Positions 1 to 60,838 of a DNA stretch of 64,000 nucleotides are shown piece after piece (position 1 is the first letter of the stretch; each line of letters starts with the position of its first letter). The position numbers were made by a program, and so were the translations under genes. The stretch is from assembly GCF_026210795.1 (NCBI RefSeq), contig NC_089429.1, positions 2,294,001-2,358,000 of the forward strand. The letters are read 5' to 3'. The DNA comes from Rhizophagus irregularis. Its lineage: Eukaryota; Glomeromycota; Glomeromycetes; Glomerales; Glomeraceae. The notes below the pieces were generated by a model. The model had not been told where the DNA came from. It saw only the letters and a list, made by a program, of their open reading frames with translations, and did not search any database.

Positions 1-42
1 TAATTTAAATTATATGTGAATTTTACATAAATATAATAAACT

Positions 43-543
43 ACTTACGATCTAAAATATTAAATAATTTTTTAAAGAATTTAGTTAGTTAAATTATATA
101 TAAATATAGTAGCTAATAGAATTAAATAAATGACAAACTTACACCCTATAGTATTATTAATGTTAAATTATAATCAATTAGATCAATTAGATAAAATATT
201 ATAATTGTATATAAAAATTAAATATATATGGTAACTTACAATCTAATTATTTAAATAAATAATATTATTAATTTAAATTATATGTAAATATTTTAAATTA
301 ATATAAAATTAAATACTTACTTTCTATTACATCATAATTATTAAGCAATTATATTAATGAAAAAAATTAGTTATTTGAAACATTTATATAAAATACAATA
401 AAAATAAATAGCTATTAACTTACCAACTATAATAACATTAATAAAATAAATTATTTGATTATATTTAGAAATAAATAATTCAATTATTATAAATACAGTT
501 AATTTAAAATTTTAAAAATTATTTGTTTATAATTTACAAGCTA
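43..543 (-). other. Chain of six 3-nt microexon-like units
   Basis: Six times in 500 bp the plus strand reads ACTTAC-NNN-CTA (the last copy ATTTAC-NNN-CTA). The positions are 43-54, 137-148, 234-245, 315-326, 418-429 and 532-543. On the minus strand each is TAG-NNN-GTAAGT: a 3' splice site, exactly three bases, then a near-consensus 5' splice site. The gaps would be introns of about 78-111 nt, the usual size in this window. In minus-strand order the triplets are CTT, TTG, AAA, ATT, GGT and ATC, and none introduces a stop in the phases tried. The series may continue off the left edge. It could be the middle of a gene with one-codon exons, a set of recursive splice sites, or a coincidence of a degenerate tandem repeat. 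The pattern is seen directly; splicing is inference. Confidence 0.45.
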
Positions 544-582
544 CAATATTATCATTAAATTTTTCTGAATAAGTTTACATAC

Positions 583-712
583 TTTTGTCTTCCTCGATTT
601 CTGAAACTAGTTTAAATTTGTTTTAAAAAGTATTTAGAATAATTTCAAATTTATGTTAGATATCTATGTTCATGCTATATGCTTTTACCTTTGCCATTAC
701 TTTGACCCATTA
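583..712 (-). other. Two candidate short exons upstream of the microexon chain
   Basis: On the minus strand an 18-nt segment (583-600) lies between TTTCAG and GTATGT. A 24-nt segment (689-712) lies between TATTCAG and GTAAAAG. The intron between them would be 88 nt, but the one joining the 18-nt segment to the first 3-nt unit would be only 42 nt, shorter than other introns here. Both segments are purine-rich and would encode charged or hydrophilic residues. No start codon or signal peptide could be placed with confidence, so these are tentative exons of the same hypothetical gene. Confidence 0.25.
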
Positions 713-1627
713 CTGAATAATATTATTGGAATTCTTCCTGAAAATCATAGGTAAATACAATTAAGCGCCTTTATTCGAGCATATATAGTTATTTGTGTAA
801 TTTGTGTAATATTATTTATGCAAAATGCAGATGCCAAGATTTCGGTTCCAGATATAGTTAACTAGTGTAACAGAACCGTTAGATATTATTTGATAAACAC
901 TATGACAAATTAAATGGTAATTACTAAATTAAAAAACTTTCTTGTCGATCATTTAACCAAAAATCTTACAAAGAAAAAACCAAAAGTTCTATGAAAGAGT
1001 TAAAATTATACTTACACGAGTCTTTTTTTCACTCCTTTTATTGTAGGTTATATATATTTTGTTGAAAATATTGACCAAAGACAATTTGAGAAAAGCGTTG
1101 AATATTCTGAAAAAATGAAAAAAAAGGTTTACATTTCTTTTGATACAAAATTCAAACAGGAGTATCAAGCGTCAGTACAATAGTGCACTGTGCAAATTTT
1201 GTTATGAAGTAAAAGAGGATGGGCATATGAAAAAGTTGCTCAAAGTATATAATAAATAAAGATCAGGCAAGTCGCAGATATAAAGGATAGCATGATATCA
1301 TAAGATTTTCCACTACGCGTCTACACCTAGTGTACCTTGCGGTTCCTGAGAGTTGTTACTTAGGAAAAGAGTTTTGTCATAACTACGAGACTTTTCTGGA
1401 AGAATAGGCGATATTATTTATAAGTTTTAGTTTTTTTTTAGTTTTTAGATTTTTTGTTGTTTTTTTTATTGATACAGACATACAGTTTAATTTAGTTTAA
1501 CACTATATAGTTAGGTTTGGTGTCTTGTTTAGTTGTTTTATCTTATTTTAAATAGTTCTAGTTTAGTTGCAGTATAGATGTACTGTATATTTTCATAGGT
1601 CTACATCGCTGATGTTAGACACTTAAA
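713..1627. other. Intergenic, AT-rich, faint coding decay
   Basis: No open gene. Short stretches around 1100-1420 have somewhat higher coding character on the plus strand, broken by many stops, and may be the residue of an old mobile-element gene. Nothing specific could be recognised. Confidence 0.4.
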
Positions 1628-19676: not shown

Positions 19677-21981
19677 TTACTTACTATTTTCTTGAGTTTC
19701 ATTCGTTTCATTGTTTAATTCCTCAAAATTACGCTTTCTTGAAAATTTTACGGGTACAGTTAAGCTTTGAGTAACGGAATTTGTATTCTGTGTGGATGAT
19801 CTGAAAACGTACGATATATTATTAACAAGTTACATATATTTATATATTAATAATTAATTACCTTTGAATATTATTTATATCAAATTCATATTCTCGTGTG
19901 ATATATTCTAAAAATTAATAAAAGCCATCTAAGTTGATATAAAACTTAAAGAAGTAAATTCAATTATCATTATCTGATCGTCTAACTTAATGCTTCAGAT
20001 TTTTTCATTAATGGCTAATTATAACTTCATACCTTGTTTAACATTATATGAGATCATTGAAGAAGAATTTATAGTTGAAGCTTTTGAAATTAAAGAACTT
20101 AATGCTCTACTTGTATAAATTGCTTTTGGATGAGATTTTTCACTAAATTCGGGTCCAAGTTGCTTTAATTGTATTAATTCCAATCTTTTTTTTTCAGCTT
20201 GCTCAAGTATTTCGTTTCCATACATTTTGATAAAAGAATCCCTGATTTCATATCTAGTTGGTCTTTTTAAAGGGTCAGAATCCCAACATTTTTTCATTAA
20301 ATTTGCAAAACATTCAGGGGTATCATTTGTAATTTCAGGGCGTTTTCCATCTATAATTTCATAAATAAGTTCAAGATTGTGTTCAATATTTGCAAAAGGT
20401 TTGCAACCTGTTGTAACTTCCCACATAATCATACCAAAACTATATATATCAGATTCTTTTGAAAATGCAGCACCTTTAAATATTTCTGGTGCGATGTAAG
20501 GTATTACTCCATATATTTCATTATTTGATAATGTATTGTTTGCAGGTTGTGATAATCCTAAGTCTCCAACTTTCCAATCCGTATTTGACAATAACATATT
20601 TCCACTATGAATATCTCGATGTATAAAATTATTTTTATGAACATTTTCGAGTCTAAAATAAAGCATTTAATTGTTAATAAACCAACTATAAATTAGAAAA
20701 TAGATTAATTCACTAAAAATATACAATAAATACCCAAATAATATTCCTTGTAAAATAAACAATTTGCCGTCCCATCTAAGATTTATAAAGTTCTTTTGCA
20801 AATAATCATGCAAATTTCCACCTTCTGCATAGGGCAATATTAACATATATTCTTTTGTTATAGGATCTTGTGTAATGCCATAACAGTCAATTACCCAATA
20901 ATTTTTACATTGATAAAGTGATCTTAGCTAAAGAATTAATAAGTCAATTAATACAATAAGACATTGCAAGTATATAAAATTTAGTAAATATTACCTCATT
21001 TAGAAAATGTTTACTGATATTTTGTGAATCACGCAATTTTTTTACAGCAACATCAGTTCCCTCCCAAGTCGCTTTATAAATAATACTGAATCCTCCTTCC
21101 GCTATTTTCTTTAAATTCGTAATTTGAGAATATGGAATCCACTCTATTCCTATGATTGGAAGATTATTACGAATAAACGAATGCACCTCAAATGGACTAC
21201 GAATTGTCTTTTTCATATAATTAGCAATAGAATGGAGATTCTTATTGTTAATTCTTGTAGAGGCAAGAAATTCCTCTATAATGTAATTTTCACTTCTGAT
21301 ATCTGTAATATCAATTCTAATGAATGAAATTCTTTTGCATTTCTTACATTGAGATTGATCTGCAATTCCAAGAATTATATTTGTTGTTAAACAATACCTA
21401 CATCCAGTATAAATTATATGGCAATGTAAACACCATTTTTGACAATAAGATTTTGACTCTTGTTGTATATATTTTAGTTCTTGATAACAAACTACACATT
21501 GATTATGACTATCCCACCATGGTAAATATAGAATCGGAATAGACTTTTTAGTCAAAGTTGATTCTACCCATCCAGCAGAAGAAAACTGGTAATCACAATA
21601 ATCAGGAATTAAATTATAACAATAAACTAACGATTTATCTTTTGTGACTACTTGTGTAAAATATAAAATCTCAGAACAATATTCGCACCATTCTTGAATG
21701 TTTGTTGAATAAAAATTATTTCTGGTTGCTTTATGCTTAATGCACTGAGAATTATTTGTACTTATACGTGCGTCCAAGTGTGTATTATTGTCTGTTATAT
21801 ATTGAATATACCAAAATAAACAATTTTTGCAATATTTTTGTCTAAGCTTGAGTGTCTCAGAGTATTCAATTCCACAATAATTACATTTTTCCTCATTATT
21901 TTTAAAAGGAATAAATAAAACAGGTACAGGACTAGATTTTAATTTTGATGTAGGATCAAATGGATTGTTATCTGTATTCAT
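19677..21981 (-). CDS. TKL-type protein kinase with Cys-rich N-terminus (copy B)
   Basis: Five-exon model on the minus strand: 21981-20995, 20927-20734, 20652-20033, 19907-19862 and 19800-19677. All junctions are GT-AG, phases join without a stop, and the product is 656 aa. Residues 30-220 carry seven CxxC pairs (33/36, 51/54, 99/102, 162/165, 184/187, 194/197, 212/215), suggesting zinc-binding ribbons. The kinase domain spans about 285-540: glycine loop AEGGFS (294-299), VAVK with Lys314, HRD (405-407), DLG instead of DFG (424-426, metal-binding Asp kept) and APE (448-450). It should be an active Ser/Thr or Tyr kinase. The Ser-rich and basic tail ends at 19677. The final GTAAGT overlapping the stop could alternatively be another donor. 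The sister gene at 27630-29972 is a recent duplicate. Substrate unknown. Confidence 0.85.
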
Positions 21982-22438
21982 AATGTTGTGTTGTATTTCA
22001 AGAAAATAGTTTATAAAAATTAAATGTAAAAATCATAAAGCAATATTTATGAAGTTACATAACAAAGTGAAATTCTACAGAAGTTTTCTTTAAATATTCT
22101 ATATAGAAATAGTTGTACAGTATATTGAAAATCCGCCATCATGCATAAATTTCAAGCAAGATTTGCTTGCTCAATTTAGAAAGTTTCGCGGCTTAAATTC
22201 TCCGTCAATGAATATTATTTTGTAAACCTGTACTACCAATCTGAAATTATGTGACGATCAATTTGACCTAGAATTTTCTTTTTTTACGATGAAATAATCA
22301 AATAACGATAAAAACTATAAACTTTCTTAATAAACTATAACATGTCGTTTCATCAATTCTTTTTATTATTTAGAATTTGGGCTTTGGAAAGTAATCTTGC
22401 TAATATTTTATACCTTGTGTAATTATGTAATTATAAGC

Positions 22439-27629: not shown

Positions 27630-29972
27630 TTACTTACTATTTTTTTGAGTTTCATTCGTTTCATTCTTTAATTCTTCAAAATTACGCTTTCTTGAAAAAT
27701 TTACAAGTCTTTGAGTAGCGAAATTTGTATTTTGTGTGGATGATATTATATTATTATTTATTTATATTATTAACAATTTACATACATTTAAATATTAATT
27801 AATTACCTTTGAATATTATCTATATCAAATTCATATTCTTGTGTAATATATTCTAAAAATTAATAAAAGAAATCTAAGTTAAATATGAATATTAAGAAAT
27901 AAATTAAATTGCTTTTATCTGATCATATCAAGTTTTTTACATTAATTGTTAATTATCAATGTACTGTAAAATAGTAAAATACCTTGTTTCACATTTAATG
28001 AGATCATCGAACTCATAGTTGAAGCTTTAGAAATTAAAGAACTTAATGCTCTACTTGTGTAAATTGCTTTCGGATGAGATTTTTCACTAAATTCTGGTCC
28101 AAGTTGCTTTAATTTTATTAATTCCAATCTTTTTTTTTCAGCTTGTTCAAATACCTCGCCGCCTCCATGCATTTTGCTAAAAGAATTCTCGATTTCATAA
28201 CTAGTTGGTCTTTTTAAAGGGTCAGAATCCCAGCATTTTTTCATTAAATTAGCAAAACATTCAGGGGTATCATTTGTAATTTCAGGGCGTTTTCCATCAA
28301 TAATTTCACAAATAAGTTCAACATTGTGTTCAATATTGGCAAAAGGTTTACAACCTGTTGTAAGTTCCCACATGATCATACCATAACTATATACATCAGA
28401 TTCTTTTGAAAATGCAGCACCTTTAAATATTTCTGGTGCGATATAAGGTACCACTCCATATATTTCATTATTTGATGATGAATTATTTGCAGGTTGTGAT
28501 AATCCTAAGTCTCCAACTCTCCAATAGCATCGAGATAATAACATATTTCCACTATGGATATCTCGATGTATAAAATTATTATTATGAATATTTCGGAGTC
28601 TAAAATAAAACATTTAATTGTTAATAAACCAATTGTAAATATAGAAAATAGATTAATATACTAAAATATACAATAAATACCCCAATAATATTCCTGTTAA
28701 AATAAACAATTTGTCGTCCCATCTAAGATTTATAAAGTTCTTTTGCAAATAATCATGCAAATTTCCACCTTCTGCATAACTCAACATTAACATATATTCT
28801 TTTGTTATAGGATCTTGTGTAATGCCATAACATTTAATAATCCAAATATTGTTATCATCACATTGATAAAGTGATCTTAACTAAAGAATAAATAAATAAA
28901 TTAATACAATAATTATTAAAAAACACATTGCAAATATATAAAATGTAAATATTACCTCATTTAGAAAATGTTTACTAATATTTTGTGAATCACGCAATTT
29001 TTTTACAGCAACATCAGTTCCTTTCCAAGTCGCTTTATAAATAATACTGAATCCACCTTCTGCTATTTTCTTTAAATTCGTAATTTGAGAATATGGAATC
29101 CACTCTATTCTATTGACTGAACGAAGTTTATCACGAATAAACGAATACATTTCAATTGGGCTGCGAATTGTATCGTTGTCCATATAATTAGCAATCAAAT
29201 GATAATTATCATTTTTAATTCTTGTAGAATCAAGAAATTCATCTATAATGAAATTTCCACTGCAAATGTTTGTAATACCAATATTAATGAATGAAGTTCT
29301 TTTGCATTTCTTACATTGAGATTGATCTGCAATTCCAAGAATTATATTTGTTGTTAAACAATACCTACATCCAGTATAAATTATATGGCAATGTAAACAC
29401 CATTTTTGACAATAAGATTTTGACTCTTGTTGTATATATTTTAGTTCTTGATAACAAACTACACATTGATTATGACTATCCCACCATGGTAAATATAGAA
29501 TCGGAATGGACTTTTTAGTCAAAGTTGATTTTACCCATCCAGAAGAAACCTGATAACCTGATGACTGCTTCTTGTAATTACAAACTCCGCAGTGTTCATT
29601 TATACTACCGAAAATGTGCAAACAAGATGGATATCCTATGAATACTTGTGTAAAACATAAAATCTCAGAACAACATTCGCACCATTCTTGAATGTTTTTT
29701 GTATAAAAATTATTTCTAGTTGCTTTATGTTTAATACACTGAGAATTATTTGTACTTATAAGTACGCCCAAGTATGTATTGTTGCCTGTTATATATTGAA
29801 TATACCAAAATAAACAATTTTTGCAATATTTTTGTTTAATTTGTGTCTTGGAGTATTCAATTCCACAATAATTACATTTGTCCTCATCGTTATTAAAAGG
29901 AATAAATAAAACAGGTACAGGACTAGATTTTAATTTTGGAGTAGGATCAAATAAATTATTATCTATGCTCAT
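27630..29972 (-). CDS. TKL-type protein kinase with Cys-rich N-terminus (copy C)
   Basis: Model on the minus strand: 29972-28956, 28880-28681, 28599-27983, 27852-27807 and 27708-27630. Product about 652 aa. The ATG at 29972 is the equivalent of the sister start; an upstream in-frame extension begins at TTG and is not needed. The architecture matches the sister gene: CxxC-rich half, then kinase with glycine loop, Lys324, HRD (417-419), DLG (436-438) and an intact APE. Exon 1 carries an extra Cys-containing segment near 29560-29640. The sister's last acceptor (CAG before ATCATCC) is missing here because the intron end has diverged. An AAG 36 nt further on (27709-27711) would restore splicing in frame and skip 12 codons. 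If that site is not used, the tail is truncated at a stop just after exon 4. Likely active kinase, substrate unknown. Confidence 0.8.
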
Positions 29973-31439
29973 AATGTTGTATTTCAAGAAAATAGATTAT
30001 AAAAGTTAAATGTAAAATTATAAAGCAATATTTATATTTTATGAAGATACAATAACAAAGTGAAATTCTACAGAACTTTTCTTTAAAGAATCAAGGATAT
30101 TCTATATAGAAATAATATAATTATGCATATTGAAAATCCGCCATCATGCATAAATTTCAAGCAAGATTTGTTGCTCAATTTAGAAAATTTCGCGGCTTAA
30201 TTTCCGTCAATGAATATTATTTTGTAAATCTGTACTACCAATCTGAAATTATGTGACGATGAAATAATCAAATAACGATAAAAATAAACTTTCTTAATAA
30301 ACTAAAACGTGTTGTTTCATCAATTCTTTTTATTATTTATAATATGGGCTTTTGGAAAGTAACATTGCTAATATTTTATAACTTATGTAATATAATATAT
30401 TATCGTAAATTACACGCACGTTCAAAAATAAAAAACAATAATGTTATTAAATGTCTAATGTTCATTAATTTAATGAATAAAAAAAAGAACACGGATTATT
30501 GAAAAGTGGTGTTAAGTGAATATTTCTATTAGCTAATAAATAGAAATGCAAACTTACTACAACGTTAAGATCTTTTTTTGAAAAAAATGATTTTTTACTT
30601 GTAGACGCACTCAAACCTTACACGTTTTTTATAAATATTGATTGTTGACAGTGGTTATTTTGGTATAAAATCCCTTATAAATGAAATAAATAAGTTTAAT
30701 TTTTTGTATTTTGTATATAAGCTAAATATTCAATAAATGACCGAAAATGAACCATTATATAATATTCGTTCTATATCGTAATAGATATTTAAATTTTACA
30801 AATAAATCTAATTTTAAATTTATTAGACTAAACACAAATATTAAATATAAAAGACTAATTTAATACATTCCATGATTAAAATGATTTTCATTTCATAATT
30901 TATTTCTCAATACGATGTAAAAAAAAGGTTTAAACTCGATTAACCAATCAATAATAGAATTTAAGATATATTTTTTTAATAAGAAAATTTTCTTAAGATC
31001 ATTTGAGTTAATTACACGATAAAAACTTAAATATATTATTAACTCAGAAGACTACTTCAGTTTTTTCTTTGGATACTTTCCTTAAAATAAATGCGTCCCA
31101 AATCTTTGATAGAATATCATTAAATAATTACACTATTCTTTTTACGCATCCAATTAATATATTCACTTGTACAATAAGTTCAAAACTTAAAAATAACTTT
31201 TTAAAATATTGTATGGTCGTCAATAAAAGAAAAATATTTTTTAAACTCTTTTAATAAAATAAGTACTTTATAACCTTTAAAATATTACGTATAATTACTA
31301 ATTATTCCAGAGCGGAGCGAATATTGTCTATAAAGGGTATATTTTTTCTAATCAATGACTTAAAGAAATATATCAATCAATGTTGAAGTTTGACATATAA
31401 ACATTAGTTATTATAAACAATTTGTACGCTTACAATATC
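29973..31439. repeat. Upstream flank of kinase copy C
   Basis: 29987-30410 and 30412-31400 align with 21981-22430 and 24627-25560 without the insertions found there. No gene was seen. A short open frame at 31069-31254 is not conserved. Confidence 0.6.
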
Positions 31440-48420: not shown

Positions 48421-50143
48421 TTTCCTGTTTAAATTGAGAAGAACGGACGCGAAAATCTTTTGACTATGAAATTGAATTACGTATAACCGGGAGGGAGAAT
48501 GGTGGGGAGTAAAAGTCATACCTACTTGTATCCTTGGTGGCTTGGTACTCCCAACCTATTGTGATACAAAATGAAAATATGAAAGAAAAGGCGGAAAAGG
48601 TCCTTGTACATATTATGGTTGTTGAGGTGGAGGTTTCTAGGGAAATAAGAAAGGTGGGTCATCGGGTAGTCTTATGATTGAAATAGATGGGCCTTAGGAT
48701 GGTTTGAAGTGGTTATCTCAATCACTCATTCATGTAGTTTGTTTTACGTGTATAGAAACGTCATGTACTACGCGCTATTCTTGGATTTTTGTATTTTCTA
48801 CATCAATGCTATAACGTAATAAAATTTTTTTTTACAAGACGCTGATCGTAACAAAATGGCATAGTTTTTCATAACATAAAATCAATTGAGGTGAACGTTA
48901 AATTTAGCAGCACATGATCCTCATCCACAGGATGATATTTTTTCGGAAAGTTCTAGCATAGTATTAATTATCTAGCCTTATTGATCTCAAATTTTTTTAT
49001 TGTAATTAAGGTCTGTTGGTCAGGTTTTCGTGATGCGATCATATTTTCCGAAGATTGATTTCAAAATCGATCTTTAGACCACTGCAAAAGATGAGGCTCT
49101 GGTTAGTAAATCCTTTTATCTGCCTTGCGTAAGTAATGCGAAATAAAGAAGAATAAAAGAAAAGTATGTTAATAACACTTAGATTTGATTCATCATCATG
49201 ATTCTAGTCATTTTTTCTGCTTTATTACAATTCTTGATCTTTTTAGCATATTTGACAAAGAAATCGTGGTAGTTGGCACGTGTTTTGTGGGCACAGTTCA
49301 CAGTTCTCATATATCGCAAATTTAAAAGCCTGGCAATATCGTTATGACAAACTCTATCAAAAGCATTCACTGTGAATGTGAAGCGGAATATGAAAATGAA
49401 ATATAAAGGTTAGAGTGGATTGAAAGTAATTTTTTACTTTTTATCTGCTAGCAATAGACATCATTTCAGAATGTATGTGTGGGAATTAGTCAAAAAAAAA
49501 ATTATGTCATTTGGAGTAATGTGGCGAAAATTTAACTTCTGAAATCATAGAAGCAAAGTATATACGATGAAAAATTAGCATTAGACAGTATGGAGTAGCG
49601 GGAAAGAACTCCCATTTTATGGGTTAGGGCTTGAGATCTATTTTTTACGTATAATTATATAATTATTTCAACTAAAATAAAAGATTTTTGCTTTATTATT
49701 TCTGATAGAACGTGTAACTAGTTGCTCTCAAATTATAATTATATAAATTACATTAGAAAATTGCATCAAATAGGCATAATAATTCTCATTATAACTACGA
49801 TACGATATTTAATCAACGACTGTTATTTCTGTATCTTCTTCTCCCCCATTTTTGATACTTCCTCTTTATCTCCTCTAGTAACAAATCTCCGTATACTTCC
49901 GTATACTCCCATAAAATCCAGAAGCAGATCAGAACGGTTTAAAGAGAATTTCAAGAAAAGAACGGTTTACAGTAATCACCACAAGTCATTCACAACTATT
50001 TATAGCCTTCAATGTAAACTCTGTTTTATGGACGGAAAAATCTGATTCAACAGCAGATCGGCTCTTTTGCATGTAGTGTTAGAAAGTCAGTTGTCCCACT
50101 ACCTCTACGAATCAACACAGTACTCCCTATTGTGCAATACTTC
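48421..50143. other. Intergenic
   Basis: Mixed composition (48480-48680 is less AT-rich) without a continuous frame. Short frames at 49179-49370 (-) and 49722-50045 (+) show no features. Confidence 0.35.
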
Positions 50144-50332
50144 ATCTTTTGCTAAGATATAGAAAGAGGTTCTTCTAAGAATCAATAGTGGAAAGTTAGG
50201 GTCCATGTATTAATATTTAAAACTAGGAGTAATATTTTATCTTTTGCTAAGATATAGAAAGAGGTTCTTCTAAGAATCAATAGTGGAAAGTTAGGGTCCA
50301 TGTATTAATATTTAAAACTAGGAGTAATATTT
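50144..50332. repeat. Perfect 94-bp tandem duplication
   Basis: 50144-50237 and 50239-50332 are identical (ATCTTTTGCTAAGATATAG to GGAGTAATATTT), with a 95-bp period. Identity without a single change suggests a very recent duplication or an assembly artefact. Confidence 0.8.
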
Positions 50333-53687: not shown

Positions 53688-56600
53688 ATGAACGAAACTG
53701 CTGCACCTAAAAAGAAAACATTGAAAGTAGTTGAAGATGGCGCGGAACAAGTAGAAGCCGCGACAAATGTAGCAGTACCATTTGCAAATTTTTTACCATT
53801 TATAGAAGAGGTGTCCAGGTTACTTAAAGAAATCGTAGATATATATCAAACAGCAGTAATTAATAAAGGAATATGTGGTGTAATGTTAGATAGAGTAGCC
53901 ATAGCTGAATCAGCTACAAAAAAATTCTTAAAAGTCCGAGAGAATGAAGAATTTTTTTCAGCAGAAAATTATGTTAATTTACAAAAATTAGTTACCGTAG
54001 TTGGTAAAATACGTAAATTTCTAGCAGAAATTTCTCAAGTTAGGGGATTAAAAAAACATACGCAAGCTAAAAATATTGAAAAGACTGCAATGGATTTAAA
54101 TAAAGAATTTGATTCTACCATTCAACTTTTGGAATTTGCTTTCATGGTTGATTTCAGTTTACGTGATGATATTGATAATAAAAAGATCAGAGCTGATATC
54201 GAAGATTTAATTGAGGTAATGTGTTTGATATAAATAATTGACATTTTAATTTTTAATACGCATGAGATAAATATAGTAAATTTAATAAATATTCATAATA
54301 GAATCTTCAAGCAATCGGAGGTGGTGGTGGTAGATTTGATCCGAATAAAAATGTCTCCACAATAATGGATAAATCCGAAACTAACATATTTCAAAGTGAA
54401 TTACTTCCATATAATGATTTTGAAGAAGTTGAAGTTGGAGAAAATGTTGGTAAAAAAATAAAAAAATATAAAAGAATAAAAAATGGGGTTAATGATTTCG
54501 TTGTATTAAAATTAGTAGCAGATGAAAGTATTAAGGAAGAGGCTAAGAATAATATTAAAAATCAAGTTACAATTTTAAGTAAATTAGAAGAATGTGATAA
54601 TATTATTCAATTTTTTGGTTTAACTACTATTGATGGTAATAAATGGTTTTTAGTAACTGAATGGGCTGAATATGGTAATTTACGCGAATTTTATAATACT
54701 TTTGGACCACTTGATGTTAAGGCGAAAGTACTATTTGCTATTGATATTTCTAGAGGTTTAAGTTTCTTGAATGCTGTTGAGGTAATTATCTTTGATGAGG
54801 GTTTCTTGTTTTAAAATTATATTTATATACGTTTATATATTTAACCATTTCTTGATTTCCTATAAATAGATTGTTCATTGTGATATAAGAGCCGAGAATA
54901 TTTTAATTACAGATTATCAAACGGCCAAGATCGCAAATTTTAGTTCAAGTAAAGCCGTAACTGATGTTACAAAAAACCACAAAACAACACTAGAACGTGT
55001 TCGATATTGTGCTCCAGAAAATTCAGAAAAATTAGGAACACAAACTAAATATAATACAAAGAGTGAAATTTATAGTTTTGGTATCTTACTTTGGGAAATC
55101 GCCGAAGAAAAAGTTCCTTATGCGAATTATAACGATATTATGGCTATTACTGAACTTGTTGGTGAAAAAAAATACCGTGAACCATTTTCTGATGCTTCTC
55201 CTTTACCAAAAGAATATCAAGATATTGCAAAAAAAGGTGTATTCATCAAAATTTTCACTTATCTTTTTATTTATAATATTAACTTTTGTAAATATCTATC
55301 TATATTTTAGCTGTTGATCATGATCCAAATTATAGGCCTTCATTTACAAAGATATTTACCGTATTACAAGATCTATATATGAAAACTTCTTCTAATTCTA
55401 TTGGTTCTTCTAGTCCTATTGGTTCTGTAAGACGACAAAGAATCTTGTTGAAAGATTTCATTAATTCTCTTTCTTTAAAGAGTATTACTTACTTACTATA
55501 TATTTATTTAAAAATCAGGAATGGATCAAAAAGAAAATGGAGGAAGAAGATATTAATTACTTTGAATATAATGAATTTAGCAAACCTATTCCAATTGGTA
55601 AAGGAGGATTTGGCTTTGTGCATAAAGCGGAAACTAATGATAAAAAACAAGTTGCATTGAAAGGTCTCATAGATTCAGTAATCGATGAAAATGTTATTAA
55701 AAACTTCGTAAAAGAGGTAAGAATCGTATTTAAATCCATCATAATGTATAAGTAGCTTGTAATAAAAACTATTCTTTTAGTTAAAACTTCTTCGTATGGT
55801 CAGCTATCATGACAATATTAATAGATTTCTTGGAATAACAAAAGGTAGTCTAATTTATTGAATTCATTCTTATAAATTTAATTAATTATATTTTAAATTA
55901 AATGGGCAGATAATATTGGTTATGTTATGGTATTGGAATACGCTAATGAAGGAAATTTAAGAGAATATTTAGAAAAAAAATTTGATTCATTACAATGGGA
56001 GAATAAGATTCAAATGGCATTAGATATTACACGCGGATTATTATGTTTACACTCGAGGAACATAATTCATAGAGATTTGGTAAATCAATAATTTATAATT
56101 TATTTATTTTTATTACATTTTTCTTAAATAATAATTTTTAGTAACGTTTACAATTATTCTTTAGCACTCAAAAAATATATTAGTGAATGACGGTAAATTA
56201 TTAATTGCAGACTTTGGATTATCTAAACAATTAACGGAAGTTACATCTAATTCAACAAGTAACAGGATGGGAATTATTGAATATGTTGAACCACAATGTA
56301 TAAGGAATGTAAATTATGTAAAAGATAAAAGGTCTGATGTTTATAGCTTAGGTGTTTTATTATGGGAGATTACAAGTGGTCGACCTCCTTTTTGTCATAT
56401 GGTAGAACGAGATATGTTAGGTTATCACATTAGTCGTGAGAATCTTAGAGAAGAACCAATTGAAGGTACGCCTTTAGAGTATCAACAACTTTATCAAAAA
56501 TGTTGGGATGGAGATCCGGAGAAAAGACCCGATATTAATCAAATATATAAAGAAATTTTAAGTCAATCCAATGTCAATGATATTAGCGAACAATCCGAAG

Positions 56601-59517: not shown

Positions 59518-60838
59518 CAGTTCACGACATAAATATCCGGAATTTTATCACAATATGTAAAAATATAATAAATTTTATTTTTTTTATTTCAAATTTATAC
59601 CATTAATAGCTTAAGATGTGCAGATAAACATACTTTAAAAGTTAGTAATTTATCGTATAACCATTATTTTCTATGACCATGTTAATCCGATCTGACATGC
59701 TATCTGCTAAACTAAAGAAGAGATTTTTATCAATATTATCCCATTCTTGCTGAATTACGCCTTGAAAATCATTAGCACCAAGTGATTTTTTTTTCATAAC
59801 CCAATTATTAACCCTTCTTTCTACATTTCCTTTAAGAATCGCCCATAAATTTTCGATGGGGTTCAAGTCAGGTGAGTTTGCAGGCCAATCAATAACCGGA
59901 ACATTATTAATCACAAAAAATTGATGAGTAAGCTTTGCGGTATGCATTGGCGCATTGTCCTGCTGAAAATTCCATCCATAACCAGCATGATAAGCATTAG
60001 GAAGTAGTTGAGATTGAAGGATTTCACGGTATTTAGCAGAATTCATGTTTTCTGTAAATAATGCAACTCCAATTGGCCCTTGGCGGCAAAATGCACCCCA
60101 AACATGAACCTTATATGGATGTTTTACCATAGGATGTACTGGATGTGGGTTTCCAGCCTTGTAACGTACAATTTGAGTATTACGAAACGTCTGAAATGTA
60201 CTTTCATCTGAAAAAATTGTGTGAGTCCAGTCATCTTGGATGTGATTTAAGGCCCATTGAAGACGAGCTTCAACATGACTTTCTTTAAGAAGAGGAACAG
60301 ACCATGGTCTACAAACAATATAATTAAGTTTATTTTTAAGAGTACGTTATACAGTTCGGGTTGATACATTAAGATCTGGATACAAATTATTCAGCTTTGT
60401 TGTCATTAAAGCTGAAGTTGTTGCATTATCATTTTTAAGAAGACGGCCAAGATATCGACGTTTTTTGGTGTCAAAACAAGAGGACGACCAGGGAACGGGT
60501 AAGTGTTCAACACTTCCTGTTTTTTTTAGACGATTGATAATGTCATATACTGTAGACTTTGGAAAACCAGTCATTTTAATTATTTCAGAGGGTTTTCGTA
60601 TATTATTATCCCATAGCTCCTTAACAGTCAACCTTTGCATTTCAAATACCGAAGTGGGTGCCATGATTTTATTTTGCTGCTAATAAACAATCAGGTGAGA
60701 ATTTTTCACGCTATATTTATGTTTAAAAAGGGCTGATCAACTTCCATTTTAATTATTATTTTGGTTGCACAAGACTTGGTGTGACAGCACTCCTTTATGC
60801 ATAAAAATAAAAATTCCGAATATTTATGTCGTAAACTG
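59518..60838 (-). mobile_element. Tc1/mariner element, 1,321 bp, nearly intact
   Basis: Terminal inverted repeats of 29 bp (CAGTTCACGACATAAATAT and its mirror, two mismatches) are flanked by TA on both sides (59516-59517, 60839-60840). One transposase frame fills the element. Intact ends and a single lesion in the coding sequence suggest recent insertion. Confidence 0.9.
59642..60664 (-). pseudogene. Tc1-family DD34E transposase with one premature stop
   Basis: A single frame from ATG 60664 to the stop at 59642, interrupted once by TAA at 60347-60349 (codon 106). Residues 1-105 hold the paired helix-turn-helix DNA-binding region (KELWDNNIRKPSEI, FPKSTVYDIINRL). Beyond the stop come the first catalytic Asp in IFSDEST, the second Asp in QQDNAP and the Glu in NPIENLW. 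Exactly 34 residues lie between the second Asp and the Glu, the DD34E signature of Tc1. A one-base change at the stop is the only visible defect. Translation restart at 60130 would yield only the C-terminal half. Confidence 0.9.

Follow-up and report, generated by a model that had tools for sequence, protein, structure and literature searches.

Exons of 1-3 nt are usually considered difficult for the spliceosome to handle, and to our knowledge exons of this size have been described so far as isolated exons. Ratchet points, at which acceptor and donor are juxtaposed, leave no exon in the mRNA. Several described systems are close to the locus presented here. Micro-Ex8 of Drosophila homothorax is a natural 3-nt exon that keeps the frame, occurs singly and is alternatively spliced (PMC7392893). 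Exons of a single nucleotide, placed between AG and GT and needed for the frame, are described for Arabidopsis APC11 (PMC4674806) and Fusarium CYP621A (PMC12940212), and the authors of the APC11 study suggest intron definition and stepwise joining for the former (PMC4674806). Schistosoma MEGs have exons mostly of 15 bp (6-81 bp, or 3-81 in the abstract), introns of 0.1-5 kb and secreted products (PMC10526429). In recursive splicing at ratchet points, acceptor and donor sites that adjoin permit intronic sequence to be removed stepwise (PMC8605326 and others). For Rhizophagus irregularis itself, 2,533 kinases are mentioned (PMC10234402). Literature searches on exons and splicing, in a collection without most subscription journals and without bioRxiv preprints, listed no report of arrays of 3-nt exons in Rhizophagus or elsewhere.

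The analysed stretch of 64,000 nucleotides (C1:2294001-2358000, hereafter the window) very probably opens on the beginning of an array of coding microexons in an R. irregularis protein-kinase gene. The initial annotation had described six minus-strand units resembling TAG-NNN-GTAAGT between positions 43 and 543, spaced 81-114 bp apart. All six were located at these places, with start-to-start distances of 94, 97, 81, 103 and 114 bp. The features of the window gene, as predicted from the aligned paralogues and the splice-site models described below, were as follows.

689..710, minus strand: exon 1, with the ATG start (MGQSNGK) and a phase-1 end before GTAAAAG, from the aligned heads of 20 paralogues
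583..606, minus strand: exon 2, 24 nt, phase 1 to phase 1, with donor GTATGT in the window copy
538..540, minus strand: 3-nt exon 1, CTT, with donor GTAAAT; CTC in most paralogues, where the first unit is conserved
424..426, minus strand: 3-nt exon 2, TTG, from the splice-site pair
321..323, minus strand: 3-nt exon 3, AAA, from the splice-site pair
240..242, minus strand: 3-nt exon 4, ATT, from the splice-site pair
143..145, minus strand: 3-nt exon 5, GGT, which with its neighbours encodes the conserved N-W
49..51, minus strand: 3-nt exon 6, ATC, which gives the conserved aromatic residue (Tyr)
43-54, 137-148, 234-245, 315-326 and 418-429, minus strand: matches to TAGNNNGTAAGT, from a pattern scan
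532-543, minus strand: sixth unit, with donor GTAAAT, read from the sequence
1..543, minus strand: in-window part of the array in the model of the window gene (locus L009); the rest extends to C1:2291597, about 2,404 bases past the window start

The array model for this gene contained 28 predicted 3-nt exons followed by a 1-nt exon, and 22 of the 28 as well as the 1-nt exon lay beyond the window.

The shuffle comparison that the initial annotation had proposed favoured its reading. The 64-kb window contained six exact matches to TAGNNNGTAAGT, five of them in the 43-429 region and the other at 55487, far away; 100 dinucleotide shuffles gave 0.42 matches on average and never more than 2. Searching the genome with the minus strand of window positions 1-720 returned at least 196 matches, and among the matches listed many were partial and stemmed from the internal repeat. 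Arrays were inspected at 24 loci (L009-L028, 10 kb each, plus L039-L041 and L043). Each of the 20 fetched loci L009-L028 had an array, with 9-46 motifs of the looser form [CT]AG-NNN-GTA[AG]G[TA], and the first triplets read CTC-TTG-AAA-ATT-GGT in most of these copies. The gap of three bases described at the outset recurred in these 20 related loci: the pattern YAG-(N)k-GTAAGT was found in 523 cases with k=3, in 18 with k=1 and in one with k=6, whereas k=0, 2, 4 and 5 gave none and longer k gave isolated single cases. A search for chains, also proposed at the outset, covered the whole genome of 146.7 Mb in 32 contigs. The strict pattern TAGNNNGTAAGT-N(68-98)-TAGNNNGTAAGT was found 3,380 times (1,651 + 1,729), against 2 for a reversed-pattern control, while the same pattern with NN replacing NNN was found 0 times genome-wide (control 3).

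The region is very AT-rich, which could produce such motifs by chance or through low complexity, and we regard this reading as having a negligible probability. It is refuted by the shuffle, reversed-pattern and 2-nt controls and by strand, as all 531 matches to the looser pattern in the 20 loci lay on the gene strand and none on the opposite one. In addition, 20 other places in the genome, among the matches listed, were 70-77% identical to the query over at least 598 of its 720 bases. Extrapolation from the 3,380 strict pairs and the 105 sites of the 1-nt motif presented below, with 24 loci inspected, suggests at least about 100 array genes and roughly 100-190.

The genes shared a general order of short 5' exons, an array of 3-nt exons, a 1-nt exon and a kinase domain. 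Among the aligned heads of 20 paralogues, exon 1 was ATGGCTCAAAGTAACGATAAAG or a near variant, its length varying by 3 or 9 nt, and its ATG was present in 19 of 20, the exception being L019. Exon 2 was 24 nt in most copies among the alignments listed, and both exons ended in phase 1. A second kinase subfamily (L039, L040, L041 and L043) likewise had an array and a 1-nt exon; in L040, exon 2 was longer and carried KEFEGS-like residues.

Array models were built by a Viterbi procedure using splice-site weights only and no coding information, for 15 loci and three more. The procedure prefers 3-nt exons by design, a bias from which the k-scan above is free. Across 23 arrays (L009-L028 and L039-L041), the models contained 809 exons, namely 782 of 3 nt, 21 of 1 nt, four of 6 nt, one of 7 nt and one of 12 nt. 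Each array held 11-62 exons of 3 nt; the highest numbers were 53, in a gene whose model reached the kinase exon, and 62, in one where the kinase exon lay outside the fetched stretch. Donors were mainly GTAAGT or GTATGT and acceptors TAG, and 75 of 122 3-nt exons overlooked by the simple pattern were of the form TAG-NNN-GTATGT. The median intron length was 91 nt, with 94.8% of 786 modelled introns at 65-115 nt. At least one longer or odd intron was present in 14 of the 23 models, and those of L015 (62 triplets) and L027 (45) crossed some very long gaps; for these two loci, the kinase-exon anchor was not found in the first modelling round.

Thirteen of 18 models (L011, L012, L013, L014, L016, L017, L019, L020, L022, L023, L024, L025 and L028) stayed open from the start of the array on into the kinase exon, of which 60-odd codons were read. 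L018 also opened when its 1-nt exon was counted, which gave 14 of 18. The four closed models were those of L009 (an insertion), L010 (a changed donor that produces a 7-nt exon), L021 (one stop) and L026 (a stop at the last junction).

These arrays can be set against the known systems. The 3-nt exons are frame-neutral like micro-Ex8 of homothorax, but would occur in chains of 11-62 in the 23 modelled arrays. MEGs and the arrays both split a coding region into many tiny, mainly frame-neutral exons that are hard to annotate automatically. Unlike in MEGs, array exons were of 3 nt in 782 of 809 cases and of 1 nt in 21, which does not fit the predominance of 15-bp exons and the usual 6-81 bp (3-81 in the abstract) of MEGs. 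The introns, with their median of about 91 nt, likewise do not fit the 0.1-5 kb of MEG introns, and the products are predicted kinases. Unlike ratchet points, the Rhizophagus arrays should leave three nucleotides each time; no acceptor YAG directly abutting a donor GTAAGT was found by the k-scan in the 20 loci.

The 1-nt exon, YAG-A-GTAAGT, was found after the array in 18 of 20 loci (all but L015 and L027), and 17 copies were aligned. The exon that follows it in L011 encodes FGTSGSEIVDQFISKNKLKWIPYDKFKNIEYLDKGGFGTTYKA. The single A turns phase 1 into the phase 2 required by the kinase exon, as a single-nucleotide exon needed for the frame would, and the same 1-nt A was present in the second subfamily (L039-L041). 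A motif covering this exon, AAATTTTAGAGTAAGT, occurred 87 times genome-wide (control 0), and at least 81 of the 87 sites were followed, after 43-458 bp (median 56) of the same strand, by a listed kinase N-lobe exon. A second version, TTYAGAGTAAGTATAATT, occurred 18 times (control 1), and at least 8 of the 18 had a kinase exon within 700 bp among the kinase exons listed. Together, the two versions made up 105 sites, at least 89 of them near a listed kinase exon. The 1-nt exons of APC11 and CYP621A are proven by RNA, whereas the Rhizophagus motif is read from genomic sequence, at 105 sites, and ends the array in the inspected loci.

The order of the triplets carried a further signature of coding. 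At 378 adjacent triplet pairs, stop codons numbered 0, 1 and 62 in phases 0, 1 and 2, compared with shuffled-partner means of 0, 28.2 and 49.9. The minimum for phase 1 was 15 in 2,000 shuffles versus 1 observed, while phase 2 gave no avoidance. In the 23 splice-site-only models, a phase-1 stop was present at 1 of 753 contiguous junctions. When triplets were shuffled within genes, the mean was 36.8 stops and the minimum 22 in 5,000 shuffles, against 3 observed with exons of other lengths removed and their neighbours joined. Phase 0, in which one triplet is one codon, was initially appealing, with 0 of 531 triplets being a stop, and was ruled out: triplet order avoids phase-1 stops, the frame is fixed as phase 1 by exons 1 and 2 and then as phase 2 by the kinase exon, and a TAA triplet stands in register in L043, where it would act as a stop in no phase but 0. 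The notion of a gene assembled from one-codon exons, raised in the initial annotation, is strongly supported by the paralogues, the frame, the genome-wide counts with their controls and protein homology, with the refinement that the predicted exons, although as long as a codon, are in phase 1 and each joins two half-codons.

The same data bear on the reading that the whole array is one long intron, with exon 2 joined directly to the kinase exon and the triplets serving as recursive stepping stones or persisting as repeat remnants. The annotated proteins P0025, P0045 and P0046 would fit this form, with a MALNNDKVS-type N-terminus running straight to or into the kinase exon, and the similar L040 gene carries an array. 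A direct join would break the frame unless another donor were used, because the phase-1 end of exon 2 meets a phase-2 start. Stops are avoided at phase-1 and not at phase-2 junctions, the N-W head and its aromatic residue are conserved, and zero-length ratchet sites numbered 0 in the 20 loci, all of which make one long intron very unlikely. The coding array is the preferred reading.

The head of the array mostly encoded A-L/F-E-N-W, with the variants K-N-W, T-N-W, E-K-W, S-D-W and D-E-W. In 22 of 22 genes having the N-W head, the following residue was Y, F or W; L040 lacked the head. An F-x-N-W-like motif (or K-W, D-W) was also present in 16 of 116 retrieved proteins, where TSGN or a similar sequence nearly always followed at once. 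The array genes thus share the kinase domain and an F-x-N-W near TSGN-like residues with the ordinary kinases of Rhizophagus and its relatives. The 16 contiguous relatives lack a long insert after N-W, where the array genes carry the microexon array. Because the array heads match the N-W of the contiguous NW-TSGN kinases, the array appears as an insert between W and TSG. Its composition was biased: N, R, Y, W, F, E and D accounted for 260 of 395 linker codons, counted with three models that have other exon lengths skipped.

The predicted N-terminus of L014 is MAQSNDEVSKIEKDK, polar by eye, and predicted peptides across its array and exit would contain, for example, DPFEFGNSGSEIVDQFISK. The spliced L014 model was recognized as a kinase by both PF00069 (124.1 bits, cut-off 31.7) and PF07714 (118.5 bits, cut-off 23.1). 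Active kinases are marked by the catalytic Asp of an HRD-type loop and by a DFG-type motif. L014 and L011 have HYNFHNGN in the catalytic loop and SDYLG in the magnesium-binding region, and the window gene has HYNFHDGN and SDYIG. In L039-L041, the loop reads HCDLHDGN, HCDFHDGN or HCDFYDGN, with SDLGL, and looks intact. Given HYNFHNGN and SDYLG, the subfamily of L014, L011 and the window gene may consist of pseudokinases.

Existing annotation appears mostly to miss or misread the array stretch. In many annotated R. irregularis relatives, the protein begins only past the array, at an internal Met, e.g., MDQFISENKLKW, or skips the array; examples are P0002, P0011 and P0014 (an internal Met) and P0025 (an N-terminus fused directly to the kinase exon). 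Array-like residues, in phase 0, are present in at least three retrieved proteins (P0012, P0016 and P0112), which then pass directly to the second kinase exon. The L019 gene encodes P0012, as shown by 297 identical residues from residue 23 on. Residues 3-22 of P0012, KIGGNGNNNNNNNNLIFMNL, were matched 20/20 and in order by a subset of the exons predicted for L019, a 12-nt exon among them. The controls, with the first two residues left out, reached at most 17 in 1,000 shuffles and at most 16 in other genes. P0112 mapped to C21 with 99% identity over residues 60-391, and 27 of its 54 earlier residues matched in order on L043, covering part of the array (at most 22 in 500 shuffles). The N-terminus of the R. 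diaphanus protein P0016 is similar, with MLKILIGGLIIIGGIGILLIGLIPL preceding WKI, which suggests that this species has the array architecture too. The three annotations are support for the splicing, not proof of it.

P0012 and P0112 also raise the question of whether every triplet is used. If triplets were variably included, skipping would yield many in-frame isoforms and combinatorial diversity instead of a constitutive linker. Every 3-nt exon is frame-neutral, as such a scheme would need, and the two proteins match an in-order subset of the L019 triplets and, in order, part of the L043 triplets. These subsets may, however, be products of a gene predictor and not of RNA, and the near-consensus donors of most units favour constitutive use. 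We consider variable inclusion possible but would not expect it.

For the coding array, we propose that the spliceosome would work by intron definition, pairing the two sites that flank a given short intron. Because 3 nt are unlikely to accommodate acceptor and donor complexes simultaneously, removal of adjacent introns is probably sequential. Each step would add three nucleotides and re-create a donor, a form of recursive splicing. The resulting mRNA would encode a polar and aromatic linker of variable length, rich in N, R, Y, W, F, E and D, between 'NW' and 'TSGN'. Tandem duplication and loss of intron-plus-triplet units would make arrays grow and shrink by one residue each with the frame kept. 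If this is correct, the dozens of consecutive 3-nt exons and thousands of strict pairs would be a test bed for intron definition and sequential splicing, and intron duplication would be shown to lengthen a protein in single-residue steps. It would also follow that many kinase genes in a plant-root symbiont are misannotated.

The introns themselves were informative. Within-array intron identity averaged 74-89% at lags 1-8 in five arrays, and some pairs were 100% identical; such likeness is expected if units duplicate. The initial annotation had described the units as differing except at the splice sites. With this mean identity, the introns instead amount to a diverged tandem repeat. In 102 non-overlapping unit pairs, chosen so that both flanking introns were at least 90% identical, the triplets differed at 54 positions versus 7.6 expected from the flanking introns. 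Pooled, triplets diverged about 7 times faster than their own introns, a figure that pair choice, gene conversion and dependence among pairs could inflate. Contributing pairs came from L010, L015, L016, L022, L025, L026 and others, while 6 of 20 genes had zero triplet differences in this comparison. Where both flanks were at least 0.98 identical, the triplet differed in 11 of 39 pairs, all 11 from two genes. By position, differences numbered 10, 20 and 24 of 102, above most nearby intron positions; positions farther into the intron rose too because offsets were not realigned, and introns were biased to similarity because pairs were picked by it. Near-identical introns with differing triplets raise the question of selection on single codons, and the contrast is suggestive of diversifying selection at that level.

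The same contrast could arise if copies of one intron had been inserted codon by codon into an existing linker, in the manner of introners. That near-identical introns flank different triplets (the 54 versus 7.6 above) fits such an origin, yet triplet selection or gene conversion of introns would explain it equally well. The spread from 11 to 62 triplets among paralogues fits gain and loss of units, and nothing corresponding to the insert was present in the retrieved kinases with a contiguous NW-TSGN. Introner elements are near-identical introns at many unrelated places in a genome; near-identical introns were seen here within arrays. An introner-like origin is distinctly unlikely in our judgement, and duplication of whole units remains the preferred account. 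We also offer, as an unlikely speculation, that the roughly 100 or more kinase genes could form a diversification system at codon resolution. Triplets changing faster than introns, array length and in-frame skipping could then give each gene very many variants of the linker, which might serve in recognition among nuclei, hyphae or hosts.

In the window gene, a 425-bp element (L009 4996-5420 in gene orientation; C1:2291081-2291505) splits the kinase exon. The ends of the element are inverted (TAGGGATGGG...CCCATCCCTA), and it has a direct repeat of 8 bp, CAAGTGGA, a duplication that looks hAT-like. As this element interrupts the kinase exon, the window copy may no longer encode a full kinase. 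Upstream of exon 1 by about 55-80 bp, a conserved block resembling ACTATATATNCTCGAATAAAGGCG was present (window ~766-789, minus strand). A similar block preceded the ATG in most of the 20 aligned paralogue heads and is perhaps a promoter or transcription start.

A non-coding RNA host was also considered as a candidate and rejected, since Rfam (gathering thresholds) and ARAGORN returned nothing in the window. Elsewhere in the window, the following features were observed.

20019-20666 and 20944-22032, minus strand: ORFs of a kinase gene at 20.0-22.0 kb, from the ORF listing
27942-28613 and 28881-29996, minus strand: ORFs of a similar kinase gene at 27.9-30.0 kb, from the ORF listing
50136-50332: 95-bp direct repeat, 2.1 copies, 98% match
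59642-60679, minus strand: Tc3/mariner-type transposase, two ORFs in one frame with a stop codon between them

The two kinase genes look like a recent local duplication. Within the transposase, DDE_3 and HTH_Tnp_Tc3_2 matched positions 59642-60346.
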